The translations under genes and the position numbers were made by a program. 64,000 nt of DNA from Kineosporia sp. NBRC 101731 (GTDB taxonomy: Bacteria; Actinomycetota; Actinomycetes; Actinomycetales; Kineosporiaceae): positions 1,315,467 to 1,379,466 of the forward strand of contig NZ_BSTC01000001.1 of NCBI RefSeq assembly GCF_030269305.1. Direction: 5' to 3'. The notes beneath the pieces were generated by a model. That model saw only the letters and a program-made list of their open reading frames with translations, made no database searches and was not told the origin of the DNA. Positions within the stretch are counted from its first letter, which is position 1. Each line of letters opens with the position of its first letter. Of this stretch, positions 46,221 through 54,721 are shown piece by piece.

Positions 46221-48848
46221 GTGGTCAGCGCGAAGAAGCTGTTCGGGCGGGCCGTGAAGACGCACCGGCAGGCCGAGGGGCTGCTCGACGCGGTGCGCGA
46301 GCGTCTCGACCGGCTCGAGGCCGAGTCGACGCACAGCGCGGAGTCGGCCCAGCAGCAGACCGCGCTGGCGGCGCGGCTGGAACGGGCCGCCGCCGACGCG
46401 GCCCCGCAGTGGCTGGGCGCGCCCTGGCCGGTGATCGGCGAGCAGCGTTTCCCCCTGGAGCACTCCGCCCGCGCCGGTGACCCGGCGATGATCCGGATCG
46501 GCGACGCGCAGCCCCTGCCCGGCGTCGGCTTCCCGGTGATCGTCCCGTTCACCGGGGTCGGCCACATCGCGATCGACACCGACGCCCGCGACCCGGCCGT
46601 CGCCGGGCTCCTGCGCAGCATCATCACCCGGCTGGTGGCAGCCTTCCCGGCCGGTCAGCTGCGCCTGCTCGCCGTCGACGGCGGTGCTCTCGGCGCCCCG
46701 CTGGCACCGTTCCACCCGCTGGTTCCCGCCGGGGTGATGAACGAGCCGGTCAGTGACCTGGACGAGTTCCGCGAGCTGCTCACCGAGGCCGAGGAACAGG
46801 TGAAACAGGTGCAGGCGGGTCTGAACCCGTCGCCCGACGTGCTCGTCGTGGTCACCGCCGCACTGCCCGCCAGCTGCACCCGCAGCGACTACTCCCGGAT
46901 CGCGGCCCTGTCGCACGCCGGCCCGGCCGCCCGCGTGCACCTGCTGCTGACCGGCTGGGGGAGCCCGCACCGCTCCCGGTCGTCGTGGGACCAGGTCCCG
47001 CCGCTGGAGCGCACCACGAGGATCACCGCCGACCCCTCCTCGTACGGGCACTTCCGGGTCGGCGACCCACCGCTGGAGAGCTTCGGGGGAGAGGGCCGCG
47101 CGCTCAACGCCACGGTCACGCTCGACCCGCCGCCCCCACCCGGCCTGATCGACGAGCTGTGCCGCCGGGTCGCGGCCAAGGCCGAGTCGGACGGCACCCT
47201 GCTGTTCGACGACCTGGTGCCCGACCGGCTCTGGGCCGAGTCGTCGATCACCGGCCTGACCACGCTGGTGGGTCGCATCGGCCGGGGCGACGCGGTGGTC
47301 TCGCTCGACGACCAGACCCCGCACTGGCTGGTCGCGGGCCGCACCGGCTCGGGCAAGACGGTGTTCCTGCTCGACATCCTCTACGGCCTGGCCGCCCGCT
47401 ACTCGCCCGACGAGATGGCTCTCTACCTGCTGGACTTCAAGGAGGGCGTGTCGTTCTCGGAGTTCATCCCGACCGAGATCGACCCGACCTGGGTGCCGCA
47501 CGCGCGCACCGTCGGGGTGGAGTCCGACCGGGAGTACGGCCTGGCCGTACTGGCCGAGCTGGTGCGGGAGATGAGCCGCCGGGCCGCCGCGATGAAGAAG
47601 GCCGGCGTCACCAACCTGGCCCAGCTGCGCACCTCCCGGCCCGACGTGGCGCTGCCGCGCATCCTCACCGTGATCGACGAGTTCCACGTGCTGCTCAAGG
47701 GCACCGACGACACGGCCAAGCGCTCGGTCGCGCTGCTGGAGGAGATCGCCCGCAAGGGCCGGTCGTACGGCATCCACCTGATCATGGCCAGTCAGTCGGT
47801 CTCCGGCATCGAGTCGCTCTTCGGCAAGAGCACGTCGGTGTTCGGGCAGTTCGGCATGCGGGTCGCGCTGTCCGGGGGCGGCGGCATCCTGGACACGATG
47901 AACGACGCCGCGGCCGCACTGCCGATCGGCCAGGTCGTGCTCAACCACGCCGCCGGGGTGGCCAGCGCCAACCGCCGGGCCCGGTTCCCCGACGCGGACG
48001 CGGCCAGCCTGCACGCGCTGCGGCACCGGATGTGGGAGATGCGCACCCCCGGCTCCCCGCCGCCCGCGGTCTTCATCGGGTACGCCGAGTACTCGGTGGA
48101 CGAGGCCCCGCCGCCCCCGCGCCGCGCCACCGGCCGTCGCCGCAAGGTCGCACTGGTCGGCCGCCAGGTCGACGTGGGCCTGTCGTCGGCCGCCTTTCCG
48201 CTCGACTCCTCACCGGGCCGCCACCTCGGGGTGCTCGGCACCTCGGCGGTCGGTGCCGACGTGCTCGCCTCGGCCGCGATCAGCCTGGCCCAGCAGCACG
48301 AGCCCGGCGAGGCCAGTTTCCACCTGGTCAGCCTGATCGGGTCGGCCGAGGAAGACGTCTTCATCCTCGAGCAGCGACTGCAGCGCGCCGGGCACCGGGC
48401 GCAGATGCTGCGCCTGCCCGAGTACCGCGAGTTGTTGCGGCAGTTCGCGAACAACCCGCCCGACCGGATGCGGCCCAACTACCTGTTCGTCTACGGCGCC
48501 GACGCGGCCGCCTCCTCGCTCCGGCAGAAGAAGCCCGGTCGCGCGCCGGGCATCGACGACTTCCGCACGATCCTGCGGGAGGGCCCGGCCTCCGGGGTGC
48601 ACATCTTCGGCTGGTGGCGCGGCGTGCGGCGTCTCAGCGACGACCTGGGTCTCGCGGGCAAGGACGACGTGGCCGGCCTGGTCGCCCTGAACGTGAAGGG
48701 CAACGAGGTGGGCACCCTGATCGGCCGGACGAACCTGCGCTGGCAGCCCCGGCACAACCGGGCCCTGCTGATCGACCGGCACGAGGACCGCGAGGAGCTG
48801 ATCGTGCCGTTCGTGTCGCCCGGCCGTTACAGCGAGGAGTTCGCCTGA
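46221..48848 (+). CDS. FtsK/SpoIIIE-domain ATPase
   Basis: An 875-aa FtsK/HerA-superfamily ATPase of unknown role, unlike cell-division FtsK in having no N-terminal transmembrane helices. Residues 1-60 are charged and coiled-coil-like. A first region (about 70-330) is a nucleotide-fold-like domain without a P-loop. The main ATPase shows GRTGSGKTVFLLDILYGLAA (Walker A, about residue 373), LYLLDFKEGVSFSEF, LTVIDEFHVLL (Walker B, near 485), KGRSYGIHLIMASQSV and the arginine-containing FGMRVALS. A C-terminal region (about 640-870) is a degenerate second module (LGVLGTSAVGADVLASAAIS). GTG at 46221 has GGAGG 8 bases upstream. It is co-translated with the following membrane protein (TGATG). It could be a secretion- or DNA-pump component; the partner is unidentified. 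Confidence 0.85.
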   Translation: MVSAKKLFGRAVKTHRQAEGLLDAVRERLDRLEAESTHSAESAQQQTALAARLERAAADAAPQWLGAPWPVIGEQRFPLEHSARAGDPAMIRIGDAQPLPGVGFPVIVPFTGVGHIAIDTDARDPAVAGLLRSIITRLVAAFPAGQLRLLAVDGGALGAPLAPFHPLVPAGVMNEPVSDLDEFRELLTEAEEQVKQVQAGLNPSPDVLVVVTAALPASCTRSDYSRIAALSHAGPAARVHLLLTGWGSPHRSRSSWDQVPPLERTTRITADPSSYGHFRVGDPPLESFGGEGRALNATVTLDPPPPPGLIDELCRRVAAKAESDGTLLFDDLVPDRLWAESSITGLTTLVGRIGRGDAVVSLDDQTPHWLVAGRTGSGKTVFLLDILYGLAARYSPDEMALYLLDFKEGVSFSEFIPTEIDPTWVPHARTVGVESDREYGLAVLAELVREMSRRAAAMKKAGVTNLAQLRTSRPDVALPRILTVIDEFHVLLKGTDDTAKRSVALLEEIARKGRSYGIHLIMASQSVSGIESLFGKSTSVFGQFGMRVALSGGGGILDTMNDAAAALPIGQVVLNHAAGVASANRRARFPDADAASLHALRHRMWEMRTPGSPPPAVFIGYAEYSVDEAPPPPRRATGRRRKVALVGRQVDVGLSSAAFPLDSSPGRHLGVLGTSAVGADVLASAAISLAQQHEPGEASFHLVSLIGSAEEDVFILEQRLQRAGHRAQMLRLPEYRELLRQFANNPPDRMRPNYLFVYGADAAASSLRQKKPGRAPGIDDFRTILREGPASGVHIFGWWRGVRRLSDDLGLAGKDDVAGLVALNVKGNEVGTLIGRTNLRWQPRHNRALLIDRHEDREELIVPFVSPGRYSEEFA

Positions 48849-49489: not shown

Positions 49490-49787
49490 GGCCGGGCTCG
49501 CCCAGAGGTGGGGCAGAGGTGGGGCAGAGGTGGGGCAGAGGCTGCCCAGAGCAGAACCGCGCACTCGCAAAACTTTTTTGGAATTTCTAAAAGCCTTGTG
49601 CAGCAAGGAAAAGGACCCACCTACTGAGCCGTTCAGGTGGGCGCCACGAAGTATTCGCCATTAAATACGTTGTCCGCCGGGCACGGGGGCGTCTACTCTC
49701 GATCTCGTTGTCCTGTCAGTGACAACAATCGCACTGCGGCAGACCTGAAGAAGGTCGGCCCGGGACTAGAGCAGGAGGTGGCGACAC
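49490..49787. other. Interval between the FtsK-like operon and the whiB7 locus
   Basis: No gene. It holds an 11-bp direct repeat AGAGGTGGGGC in three perfect copies (49504-49536), ending in a half-inverted copy (AGAGGCTGCCCAGAG); an unusually AT-rich patch (about 49565-49595, CAAAACTTTTTTGGAATTTC); hairpins CCTTG-TGCAG-CAAGG (49594-49608) and CCCACCT...AGGTGGG (49616-49641); and the whiB7-type promoter listed separately. A short stem GACCTGAAGAAGGTC lies at 49742-49756 in the 5' leader. Confidence 0.6.
49650..49699 (+). promoter_or_regulatory. Candidate whiB7 promoter with AT-rich WhiB7 element
   Basis: A -35 like TTGTCC (49670-49675) and a -10 like TACTCT (49694-49699) are separated by 18 bases. 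Directly upstream of the -35 is an AT-rich stretch, AGTATTCGCCATTAAATAC (49650-49668). WhiB7 is known to activate SigA promoters through an AT-rich sequence just upstream of the -35 using its AT-hook, and to autoregulate; this layout matches in position and composition. The transcription start would be near 49706, giving a leader of about 465 bases before whiB7. Confidence 0.65.
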
Positions 49788-50078
49788 GTGAAGAACACGA
49801 TTGACATGCGGATCACCGCCGCCTCCGTCGCCGTCCAAGGCAAAGCCGCGTCCGTGTCCTCGTCCTTGAATGAGGTCCGGTATCACGTCGGCGCGACTGA
49901 ACTCGTCAACACGGGTGCAGTCTGCCTGCAGTCCGCTCCGTCGTCCCTGAGCTCCTTCTGGGCCGGCGCCATGAGTGGGGCTGCTGCCGCCAAGGCCGGC
50001 CGTCTGGCCGCCGTGCGACCGTCCTCCGATTTCTTCAAGCCCCCTTACGGGTCACAGGCCAGCGATGGCACCGGATAG
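49788..50078 (+). CDS. Upstream ORF in the whiB7 leader (candidate attenuator peptide)
   Basis: A 96-codon open frame with a strong ribosome binding site (GGAGG at 49774-49778) before GTG 49788. The peptide begins MKNTIDMRITAASVAVQGKA and is Ala/Ser-rich, with no recognisable domain, signal peptide or conserved motif. It ends 24 bases before a strong intrinsic terminator and about 93 bases before whiB7. WhiB7 leaders in mycobacteria and Streptomyces are known to contain a translated uORF whose stalling by ribosome-targeting antibiotics prevents terminator formation; position, strength of initiation signal and terminator make this the likely equivalent. The peptide sequence may matter less than its translation. 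Confidence 0.7.
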   Translation: MKNTIDMRITAASVAVQGKAASVSSSLNEVRYHVGATELVNTGAVCLQSAPSSLSSFWAGAMSGAAAAKAGRLAAVRPSSDFFKPPYGSQASDGTG

Positions 50079-50102
50079 GCAAACGCCGCTTCCGGCCTCG
50101 CG

Positions 50103-50139
50103 AAAAAGCCGTGGACCCCATTGGGGTCCACGGCTTTTT
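50103..50139 (+). terminator. Intrinsic terminator in the whiB7 leader
   Basis: A near-perfect hairpin, arms AAAAAGCCGTGGACCCCA (50103-50120) and complement (50122-50139), ending in CTTTTTCGTTGTCTG on the plus strand. It is the clearest Rho-independent terminator in the window. It lies after the uORF and 32 bases before whiB7, so whiB7 expression requires read-through. The A-tract on the 5' side could also stop transcription from the other direction. Confidence 0.85.
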
Positions 50140-50171
50140 CGTTGTCTGACAAGGGTTTTCAGGTTTCCGTG

Positions 50172-50555
50172 ATGAGCAGAACGTCCAATCTCAACTCCAA
50201 TTCAGCGAAAGATGAAACAGCTCCCGGTCGTCACCGGGGGAACAACCCGAGGGGGATGAAACCCGTGCAGCTCACCGCCTTGCTCGACGCCTTGGTGGAA
50301 GAGATCGACGAGACCTCGACCGAGATGCCCTGCCGGGTGTTCGACGCGGAGCTCTGGTTCGCTGAGTCTCCGACGGATGTGGAGCAGGCGAAGGCACTTT
50401 GCCGCGACTGCCCCGTGCGGCAGGAATGCCTGGCCGGTGCGCTGGAGCGCAACGAGCCGTGGGGGGTCTGGGGAGGCGAGCTCTTCGTCGCCGGCGTGAT
50501 CGTCGCGCGCAAGCGCCCCCGGGGCCGGCCGCGGAAGGTTGTGGTGGCTGCCTGA
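50172..50555 (+). CDS. whiB7: WhiB7-type Fe-S transcription regulator
   Basis: WhiB-family regulator, about 127 aa, that activates intrinsic antibiotic resistance genes with SigA. The four cluster cysteines are in MPCRVFDAELWF and LCRDCPVRQECLAG; the WhiB signature is EPWGVWGGELF; the C-terminal AT-hook KRPRGRPRK identifies the WhiB7 subclass. The N-terminal 45 residues (SNLNSNSAKDETAPGRHRGN) are disordered and longer than in M. tuberculosis WhiB7. ATG 50172 is given although its ribosome binding site is weak; ATG 50256 (MKPVQLTALL) is a possible alternative start. It is preceded by its own promoter, uORF and terminator. Confidence 0.9.
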   Translation: MSRTSNLNSNSAKDETAPGRHRGNNPRGMKPVQLTALLDALVEEIDETSTEMPCRVFDAELWFAESPTDVEQAKALCRDCPVRQECLAGALERNEPWGVWGGELFVAGVIVARKRPRGRPRKVVVAA

Positions 50556-50643: not shown

Positions 50644-50811
50644 ATGCATGCCAGCCTGTACAACTTCGAACTGATCAAACTGCAACATCACGAGGCCAGG
50701 ACGCTCGCCGCCGACGAGCGGTACGTCGCCGTGGCCAGGCGCGCCCGCCGCCGCACGAAGCGGGCACTGTGGACGAAGGCGACGACCGCCCGGGTTGGAT
50801 CGGTTCGGTAG
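50644..50811 (+). CDS. Small basic protein, unknown function
   Basis: A 55-aa open frame starting MHASLYNFELIKLQHHEART with a ribosome binding site (GGGGGA) about 8 bases before the ATG. The second half is strongly basic (VARRARRRTKRALWTKATTA). The context is right after whiB7 and before the AP-superfamily gene. Small actinobacterial proteins with a helical N-terminus and basic tail are common; no function is suggested. A 17-bp hairpin at 50882-50925 follows. Being separated from whiB7 by about 90 bases, it could be either an independent gene or co-transcribed. Confidence 0.6.
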   Translation: MHASLYNFELIKLQHHEARTLAADERYVAVARRARRRTKRALWTKATTARVGSVR

Positions 50812-53350: not shown

Positions 53351-54721
53351 TCAGTCGCGCGCGACCTCGTTGTCATCCCGCTCGTCATGCAGCTCGTAGG
53401 CCCCGGCATCGAATTCCGGCAGCCACTGCTGCAGCACCTCGGGCACCGGTACATCGCCGTCGATCTGGCAGAGCACCGCGATGCCGCCCAGCCAGACCCG
53501 GTGGATCAGCAGGTACTCGGGCGGCAGGTTGAGCTTGAGGCCCATCGTCCAGTCCGGCCGCCGGACATCGTTGATGTAGGTGAAGAGCGAGCGCATCCAG
53601 GCCCGCTCGAAGCGCCAGCTGGAGTGCCGGATCGGCTCCAGGAAAGGGGCCAGGTAGGTCAGCAGGGCATCGCCGTCGATCGTGATGGACGACTTGATGA
53701 AGCCGAGTTCGCGCAGACCCGCGACCACCGCCTCCGACTCACCGGCCATGGCCAGGGTGAGCAGGCGTCCCATCTCCGGCGGCATGCCCTCGGGCAGACG
53801 CTTGACGGCGCCGAAGTCGAGTACCCCGAAACGGCCGTCGTCGAGCAGACGGTAGTTGCCCGGGTGCGGGTCGGCGTGCAGCATCCCGGCCCGGGCCGGG
53901 CCGGCCAGCAGGAACTCCAGGTAGCGCCGGGCGCCCAGGTCACGTTCCTCGCGGGTGCCGGAGGAGATCAGCTTCGACAACGGCACACCCTCGAGCCACT
54001 CGCTGACGATCACGTGCTCGCTGCTGGCCAGGACCGCAGGGATCGCGAACACCGGGTCGTCCCGGAAGGCCTTGGCGAACTTCGCCTGGGTCTTGGCCTC
54101 GAGCGTGTAGTCGAGTTCCTCCACCATGCGGGCCTTGAGCTCGTCGAGGATCGGCTTCACATCGAGGCCGGGGATCCAGCCACCCGCGATCCGGCCCACC
54201 CTCGTCACCTGGTTGAGGTCCGAGATCAGGGCTGCTCCCGCACCCGGGTACTGGATCTTCACCGCGCAGGCCCGGCCGTCCCGCCAGACGGCCTTGTGTA
54301 CCTGGCCGATGCTCGCCGCGGCCGCGGGCTGGTCGTCGAAGCTCTGGAACTTGCTGGTGCGCCAGCGGGGGCCCAGTTGCTCGGCCAGCACCTGATGCAC
54401 CGTGGCGGCCGGCAATGGGGGAGCGGAGTCCTGCAACTTCGTCAGGGTCGCCCGGTAGGGCGCGGCGACCTCCTCGGGGAGTGCGGCCTCGAAAACGCTC
54501 AGGGCCTGGCCGAACTTCATCGCCCCGCCCTTGAGCTCGCCCAGTACGCGGAACAGCTGCTCCGCGGTGCGGGCCTGCATCTCGGCCGCGACCAGTTCGG
54601 CCGGCTTACCGCCGAGACGTTTACCCAGTCCCAGAGCAGTACGTCCGGCAGCCGTCAGGGGCAGGGACGCCAGCTTCGCCGTCCGGGTGACCGCGCGACG
54701 CGGCAGATCTGTCACTTTCAC
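53351..54721 (-). CDS. ABC1/UbiB-type atypical kinase
   Basis: Atypical protein kinase-like protein of the ABC1/ADCK family, 456 aa. The family KxGQ motif is in LKGGAMKFGQALSVFEAALP (about residues 65-84), the nucleotide Lys in GRACAVKIQYPGAGAALISD, and the catalytic/metal segments in MLHADPHPGNYRLLDDGRFG and VLDFGAVKRLPEGM. Catalytic residues look intact. Members bind ATP and act in lipid/quinone metabolism; in actinobacteria a homologue (Rv3197) lies next to whiB7 and is linked to macrolide tolerance, consistent with the position here. GTG at 54721 overlaps the stop of the upstream gene (GTGA). Confidence 0.92.
   Translation of the reverse strand: MKVTDLPRRAVTRTAKLASLPLTAAGRTALGLGKRLGGKPAELVAAEMQARTAEQLFRVLGELKGGAMKFGQALSVFEAALPEEVAAPYRATLTKLQDSAPPLPAATVHQVLAEQLGPRWRTSKFQSFDDQPAAAASIGQVHKAVWRDGRACAVKIQYPGAGAALISDLNQVTRVGRIAGGWIPGLDVKPILDELKARMVEELDYTLEAKTQAKFAKAFRDDPVFAIPAVLASSEHVIVSEWLEGVPLSKLISSGTREERDLGARRYLEFLLAGPARAGMLHADPHPGNYRLLDDGRFGVLDFGAVKRLPEGMPPEMGRLLTLAMAGESEAVVAGLRELGFIKSSITIDGDALLTYLAPFLEPIRHSSWRFERAWMRSLFTYINDVRRPDWTMGLKLNLPPEYLLIHRVWLGGIAVLCQIDGDVPVPEVLQQWLPEFDAGAYELHDERDDNEVARD

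Follow-up and report, generated by a model that had tools for sequence, protein, structure and literature searches.

The window analysed in this work is a stretch of 64,000 nucleotides from the 8.26 Mb genome of Kineosporia sp. NBRC 101731, a member of the genus Kineosporia. It contains a whiB7 gene that is preceded by a predicted promoter, a long upstream open reading frame (uORF) and a predicted intrinsic terminator. The anatomy of the locus, its conservation, the base pairing and the retention of the uORF frame were read from the comparison of related sequences. The features are listed below with their positions in the window.

46221-48848, upstream of the whiB7 locus: gene for an FtsK/EccC-like ATPase, then an ORF of 213 codons (Pfam/NCBIfam search)
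49661-50555, + strand: whiB7 attenuation locus, with promoter, uORF, terminator and WhiB7 orthologue in order
49661-49666, + strand: AT-rich WhiB7-type element TTAAAT, 3 nt upstream of the -35 box, a 4/6 match to GAAAWY (sequence)
49670-49699, + strand: candidate promoter with -35 TTGTCC (49670-49675), a spacer of 18 nt and -10 TACTCT (49694-49699)
49773-49778, + strand: strong ribosome-binding site AGGAGG of the uORF (sequence)
49788-50078, + strand: uORF of 96 codons with GTG start and TAG stop, its frame kept and its peptide body nearly free
50049-50059, + strand: left arm of the predicted antiterminator, inside the uORF, with GGGTC at 50049-50053 and GGC at 50057-50059 (nascent-chain fold, consensus of six Kineosporia, cross-genus covariation of the equivalent helix)
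50062-50101, + strand: predicted stem at the antiterminator apex, in which 50062-50075 pair with 50091-50101 and enclose the TAG stop codon of the uORF (50076-50078)
50100-50142, + strand: intrinsic terminator hairpin with T-tract, a predicted 20-pair stem (fold and conservation)
Within 50100-50142, + strand: right arm of the predicted antiterminator, formed by the terminator 5' arm, with GCC at 50108-50110 and GACCC at 50114-50118
50256-50555, + strand: whiB7, starting at ATG 50256 or, more likely, at GTG 50265 (profile and sequence comparison)
50644-50811, downstream of whiB7: small ORF of 55 codons, beginning MHASLYNFELIK, with similar ORFs in two other loci (L008, L011)
53351-54721, - strand: ABC1/UbiB-like kinase; among NCBIfam models it fits that of a macrolide-binding ATPase (MABP-1) best, at 479 bits, below the cut-off of 800

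Three comparisons identify the downstream gene as a WhiB7 orthologue. Its product matches the Pfam Whib profile with 61.2 bits against a cut-off of 23.6, and M. tuberculosis WhiB7 (PDB 7kif) aligns to it with 108 bits, whereas WhiB chains not named WhiB7 reach at most 39.5 bits. Six WhiB genes were found in the genome, and the comparison of this gene with its own genome singles out the whiB7 locus (3.2e-64, next 1.4e-9); since only one of the six stands out, the genome holds no second WhiB7-like copy. The sequence GAGGGGG (region 50249-50267) abuts ATG 50256, while GTG 50265, three codons on, is better spaced. Because of this abutment, and because relatives start with MQLTALLD-like sequences, GTG 50265 is the likelier start. 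A WhiB7 match was present in 216/296 genomes of the class sample. Among the neighbouring genes, no match of the small downstream ORF passed a threshold, the ones obtained being Pfam Cytochrom_D1 with 11.9 bits and the NCBIfam DLW-39 family with 12.9 bits (cut-off 24), and the 213-codon ORF that follows the FtsK/EccC-like ATPase had no Pfam or NCBIfam match.

Promoter, terminator and layout of the leader

A set of whiB7 leaders was compiled from 175 loci, of which 153 passed a rule on terminator and uORF and 97 were left after dereplication. The 22 loci that failed comprised 14 with no uORF by the SD rule, six with no terminator by the pattern, which favours GCC[GA][CT]G stems, and two in which the WhiB motif was not found. 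The layout of promoter, GTG-start uORF, terminator and whiB7 occurs in 6/6 Kineosporia genomes, and the same order of elements recurs across the family and class in many further genera. The distance from the uORF stop codon to the terminator stem ranges from 7 to 45 nt (median 25) in the 97 leaders.

Promoters were searched with the pattern TTG, 16-19 nt, TANNNT, scored together with an AT-rich element 3 nt upstream. This WhiB7-type arrangement was detected in 91/97 dereplicated leaders, with a score that was reached by 0/910 shuffles, and 89 of these 91 leaders have at least 5 of 7 A/T at the position of the AT-rich element. Comparison of the six Kineosporia sequences gives TTAAATACGTTGTCC at this element in all of them. 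The AT-rich motif and its 3-nt spacing to the -35 box are as reported for Streptomyces WblC targets in the accessible part of PMC7157823. The transcript start is estimated from the sequence to lie near 49707; an inverted repeat, GTTGTC...GACAAC at 49707-49726, falls on this position. A separate AT-rich block at 49569-49601, upstream of the promoter, has the core AAACTTTTTT in 6/6 Kineosporia and is possibly a further regulator site or the remnant of an old terminator.

The hairpin at the T-tract has a 37-base core, AAAAAGCCGTGGACCCC/GGGGTCCACGGCTTTTT, at 50103-50139. On folding, the 61-nt stretch around it reaches -41.9 kcal/mol, a stability attained by 0/200 shuffles (z -9.2), and the six Kineosporia sequences include one compensatory pair in the stem. 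Predicted structure and conservation together place a terminator between the uORF and whiB7. In the terminators of 41/97 leaders, GGAACC is paired with GGATCC, leaving an A.A mismatch; the 5' arm of these terminators looks as if it were tuned to the antiterminator (GGTTC) and not to its own 3' arm. Directly 3' of the terminator, at 50142-50152, TTGTCTGACAA is identical in 4/6 Kineosporia, and TTGTCTGGCAA is found in the other two.

The initial annotation had recognized a whiB7 attenuation locus from a TTGTCC-18-TACTCT promoter after an AT-rich stretch, a 96-codon open frame with GGAGG, a 37-base hairpin at a T-tract and a WhiB protein with GVWGGE and an AT-hook. Each of these parts is found where it was read, GVWGGE and RGRPRK being encoded downstream of the hairpin, and the reading as a whole is supported by the presence of all parts in 6/6 Kineosporia and, in varied form, in numerous further actinobacteria. 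Simple promoter and terminator scans of the window listed neither the promoter nor the terminator of this locus. The probable causes are a promoter that departs widely from the sigma70 consensus and a stem that extends into the T-tract; both elements are better judged by their conservation.

The strength of the terminator and the presence of conserved blocks in the 113-nt spacer behind it would also suit another arrangement, with the uORF as a small gene of the usual kind, closed by a terminator of its own, and whiB7 expressed from a second promoter within the spacer. We regard this as very improbable, given that the AT-rich WhiB7-type promoter precedes the uORF in 91/97 leaders, that the conservation of the uORF peptide (see below) is unlike that of a gene product, and that the end of the uORF covaries with the terminator arm. 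The promoter scan of the spacer listed no promoter-like site, a result that says little, as the scan missed the upstream promoter too.

Frame and peptide of the uORF

The uORF was initially described as long and without known sequence. At E 0.001 its peptide indeed matches nothing in Pfam or NCBIfam, but the uORF is not unusual in length, as the uORFs of the 97 leaders span 23-172 codons with a median of 84, and its sequence is nearly free. Because long uORFs are the rule and their sequence is hardly constrained, stalling determinants in the uORF peptide may be absent.

Comparison points to translation, on the basis of the SD sequence, frame-keeping indels and a GC3 bias. In the 29 pairs of related loci described below, indels in multiples of three make up 37/61 of those in the uORF versus 7/47 in the noncoding spacer after the terminator (p 1.4e-6), and the uORF body has a GC3 of 0.83, with GC1 0.66 and GC2 0.59. 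The openness of the frame alone says little, because shuffled uORFs remain open in 23% of trials.

Selection on the peptide was estimated from 29 independent locus pairs with ≥ 80% identity, a few of which have doubtful gaps (e.g. L044/L051). The dN/dS was 0.72 for the uORF body (95% bootstrap interval 0.63-0.82), 0.49 for the last 15 codons (0.33-0.76) and 0.10 for whiB7 (0.07-0.14); the value for the body is perhaps overstated, because its codon bias may hold dS down. A value of 0.97, obtained from 389 pairs with > 72% identity, was replaced, since unrelated genera were mixed in. Within Kineosporia, differences in the first part of the uORF are equal across the three codon positions (0.37, 0.35 and 0.36 per codon), and in pairwise comparison the fourfold sites are identical at 97/106 in the last 14 codons versus 289/411 before. 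The uORF looks translated, with its frame and codon bias kept and its peptide nearly free, although some peptide constraint may exist, as the body has a dN/dS under 1 and the last 15 codons have one of 0.49.

An alternative reading is an arrest peptide, i.e. an Erm-type nascent-peptide motif that stalls the drug-bound ribosome at a set codon. The uORF ends in W-x-P-P-V in 21/97 leaders and in PPV in 31/97, and this end, with its lower dN/dS, is the most conserved part of the uORF. However, all six Kineosporia uORFs end in SDG[T/S]G, lack W-x-P-P-V and still keep the antiterminator fold, and the motif is missing from the uORF of locus L017 as well. The fourfold sites at the uORF end are conserved too, and the same bases build the antiterminator, whereas the body is nearly unconstrained. 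In addition, several drug classes are sensed by the whiB7 uORF according to excerpts of PMC12121999, which is hard to explain by one motif. Among the motifs compared here, none was conserved at a stall site, the dN/dS of the body being 0.72 and the frequent C-terminal motif occurring in 0/6 Kineosporia. An arrest peptide is in our judgment unlikely. W-x-P-P-V is read as a side effect of the RNA, although the reduced dN/dS at the uORF end leaves room for peptide constraint. That related species keep the frame but hardly the peptide speaks for a 'ribosome timer' indifferent to sequence rather than for a specific stalling peptide.

Antiterminator pairing and its distribution

The antiterminator can be named from predicted folds as the last ~30 nt of the uORF paired with the terminator 5' arm, with the stop codon near the apex. 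For this prediction, the RNA was folded as a nascent chain that begins 45 nt ahead of the uORF stop and ends at the terminator loop, when the 3' arm does not yet exist. Among 48 loci that were hand-picked from 129, the general pattern is one long imperfect hairpin with the stop codon near its apex and the terminator 5' arm on its 3' side. In the window, the fold and the Kineosporia consensus pair GGGTC (50049-50053) with GACCC (50114-50118), and GGC (50057-50059) with GCC (50108-50110).

The recoding, swap, 3' arm and ribosome-mask tests of the fold used all 97 leaders; the comparison with other windows of the same uORF used 96, as one uORF was too short. In 95/97 leaders, the final 45 nt of the uORF pair with at least 6 nt of the terminator 5' arm. 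Compared with the mean of 60 synonymous recodings, the native fold is the more stable in 88/97 (mean z -1.57); compared with the mean of 40 swapped uORF ends, it is so in 93/97 (mean z -1.70), and compared with other windows of its own uORF in 89/96 (mean z -2.15). As the leaders are related, p-values from the recoding and swap tests overstate independence. Taken singly, 19/97 leaders beat all recodings and 23/97 all swaps; the leader of the window is not significant on its own (z -1.32 for synonymous recodings, -0.92 for swaps).

A covariance analysis of related leaders, proposed in the initial annotation, bears out the pairing on two measures and finds it ordinary on two others. The alignment (A2) holds 67 of the 97 leaders, 30 with odd or mycobacterium-like ends having been dropped by eye, which favours the covariation count. 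RNAalifold found no structure on A2 with default scoring; with RIBOSUM scoring it gave the structure used for the counts, the outer helix of which was extended by hand. Cells that changed on both sides of antiterminator pairs numbered 73 versus 40.9 ± 5.1 after shuffling, and the covariation score was 0.206 versus 0.157 ± 0.007, each with 0/500 shuffles as high; sliding the pairing partners lowers both values. The number of pairs with changes on both sides (69/500 shuffles) and the number of pair types (63/500) were not exceptional and were as high when slid by -3 columns. No compensatory change in antiterminator pairs was found among the six Kineosporia. The cross-genus fold and covariation support an antiterminator that excludes the terminator, while the window alone supports it weakly. 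The initial annotation had also called the antiterminator undescribed. Accessible parts of PMC10727445 and PMC9618640 already describe a whiB7 antiterminator that uses overlapping uORF and terminator sequences, whereas the exact Kineosporia pairing is specific to this work.

A covariance model built from A2 matched 75/148 class genomes once each at E 0.001. All 71 matches that could be checked lie 59-272 nt upstream of a WhiB7 match on the same strand, and four have no checkable whiB7 place. Of the 75 matched genomes, 46 do not figure in the training list, though some of these share a genus with training rows; this list was mapped by hand, and some named loci may duplicate other genomes. The model also matched 16 of the 38 relatives in a second set, at E 0.01. 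One genome (G016) has a second, antisense match at the same place. This second search gave no match in three Kineosporia, namely G002, G003 and the genome of the window, which was not hit in any of the whole-genome searches; a direct search of the window, itself a training row, gave one clear match at 50043-50120 with 33.9 bits, the next reaching 15.1. Rfam 15 was searched with the 12 kb of the window that surround the locus and with 16 loci of the set, L007 included, and no family reached its gathering score. Sub-threshold Rfam matches (Xoo2 with 25.2 bits over the terminator, COG3860 and BcKCsr2 in other loci) were taken as chance.

Proposed switch and relation to known attenuators

We conclude that the locus is very probably a whiB7/wblC ribosome-mediated transcription attenuator, in which we infer the uORF to act as a timer. 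RNA polymerase would initiate near 49707 and, in the unstressed cell, a ribosome would closely trail it through the 96-codon uORF to the stop codon. There, the ribosome would cover the apex of the hairpin made by the uORF end and the terminator 5' arm, so that the 5' arm is released, the terminator folds and transcription ends. When elongation is slowed anywhere in the uORF, by an antibiotic or a missing amino acid, the antiterminator hairpin would form first and hold the terminator 5' arm, and the polymerase would read into whiB7. WhiB7 would then activate its own promoter via the AT-rich element.

Folding limits how such a switch can work. With the 3' arm allowed, the fold is more stable in 97/97 leaders, by a mean of 14.1 kcal/mol (-60.9 versus -34.4 in the window), and the terminator is held in 85/97. 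A thermodynamic picture of the switch finds no support, as the terminator wins at equilibrium; because the terminator-containing fold prevails as soon as the 3' arm is present, the switch must be a kinetic one, with timing deciding. Masking a ribosome at the stop codon lowered the pairing probability of the arm in 81/97 leaders, but in only 19 did it fall to less than half. A ribosome in this position would presumably open the antiterminator apex.

In this timer, the length and frame of the uORF would matter and no dedicated stalling peptide would be needed; the comparison suggests that RNA pairing and uORF frame count far more than the protein sequence of the uORF. We hold it to be an evenly balanced question whether the leader is a class-wide actinobacterial structured RNA without a matching Rfam 15 family, with a sequence-indifferent timer uORF (frame, codon bias and rough length kept while the peptide drifts) and with W-x-P-P-V as a by-product of antiterminator bases. 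If true, the timer would explain the induction of whiB7 by drugs of unlike action and by amino-acid shortage. Antibiotic stalling of ribosomes within the whiB7 uORF was called untested in 2025 in an accessible passage of PMC12121999, and the present comparison turns this question into a clear contrast between a peptide motif and a generic timer. It concerns leaders that control intrinsic antibiotic tolerance in actinobacteria.

In trp-type attenuators, termination is allowed when a ribosome sits on the uORF stop codon and thereby keeps the antiterminator from forming. The Kineosporia leader resembles them and the ilvB1-type attenuator of M. tuberculosis, in which a ribosome at the uORF stop likewise blocks the antiterminator and permits termination (PMC13236596, in part). 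Both types have a short uORF whose control codons sense amino acids, whereas the Kineosporia uORF is long and nearly free in sequence. Ribosome-targeting antibiotics are sensed through the uORF by the macrolide-inducible erm-type leader peptides. The Kineosporia leader shares this uORF-based sensing, but has no conserved peptide body.

The closest likeness is to the whiB7/wblC uORF attenuator known in Streptomyces and Mycobacterium (Lee 2022, via citing papers; Dinan 2014, PMC4128351; PMC10727445). In the general scheme, as available parts of PMC11550727, PMC9618640, PMC10727445 and PMC4128351 give it, translation of the uORF leads to the terminator and disturbed translation to the antiterminator. 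In M. tuberculosis under linezolid, whiB7 is a stated exception to reduced transcript completion (PMC10937400, in part). No paper on whiB7 in Kineosporia was found in the literature searched, which lacked most subscription journals. The leaders share the uORF with SD sequence, the terminator at the uORF end, the overlapping antiterminator, WhiB7 and the AT-rich promoter element (PMC7157823). Kineosporia differs in its uORF end, SDG[T/S]G where W-x-P-P-V is frequent elsewhere, in a terminator stem without the GGAACC/GGATCC mismatch of 41/97 leaders, and in its AT element TTAAAT. The mechanism is already known; the Kineosporia locus adds a sharper antiterminator and evidence that the peptide sequence carries little weight.
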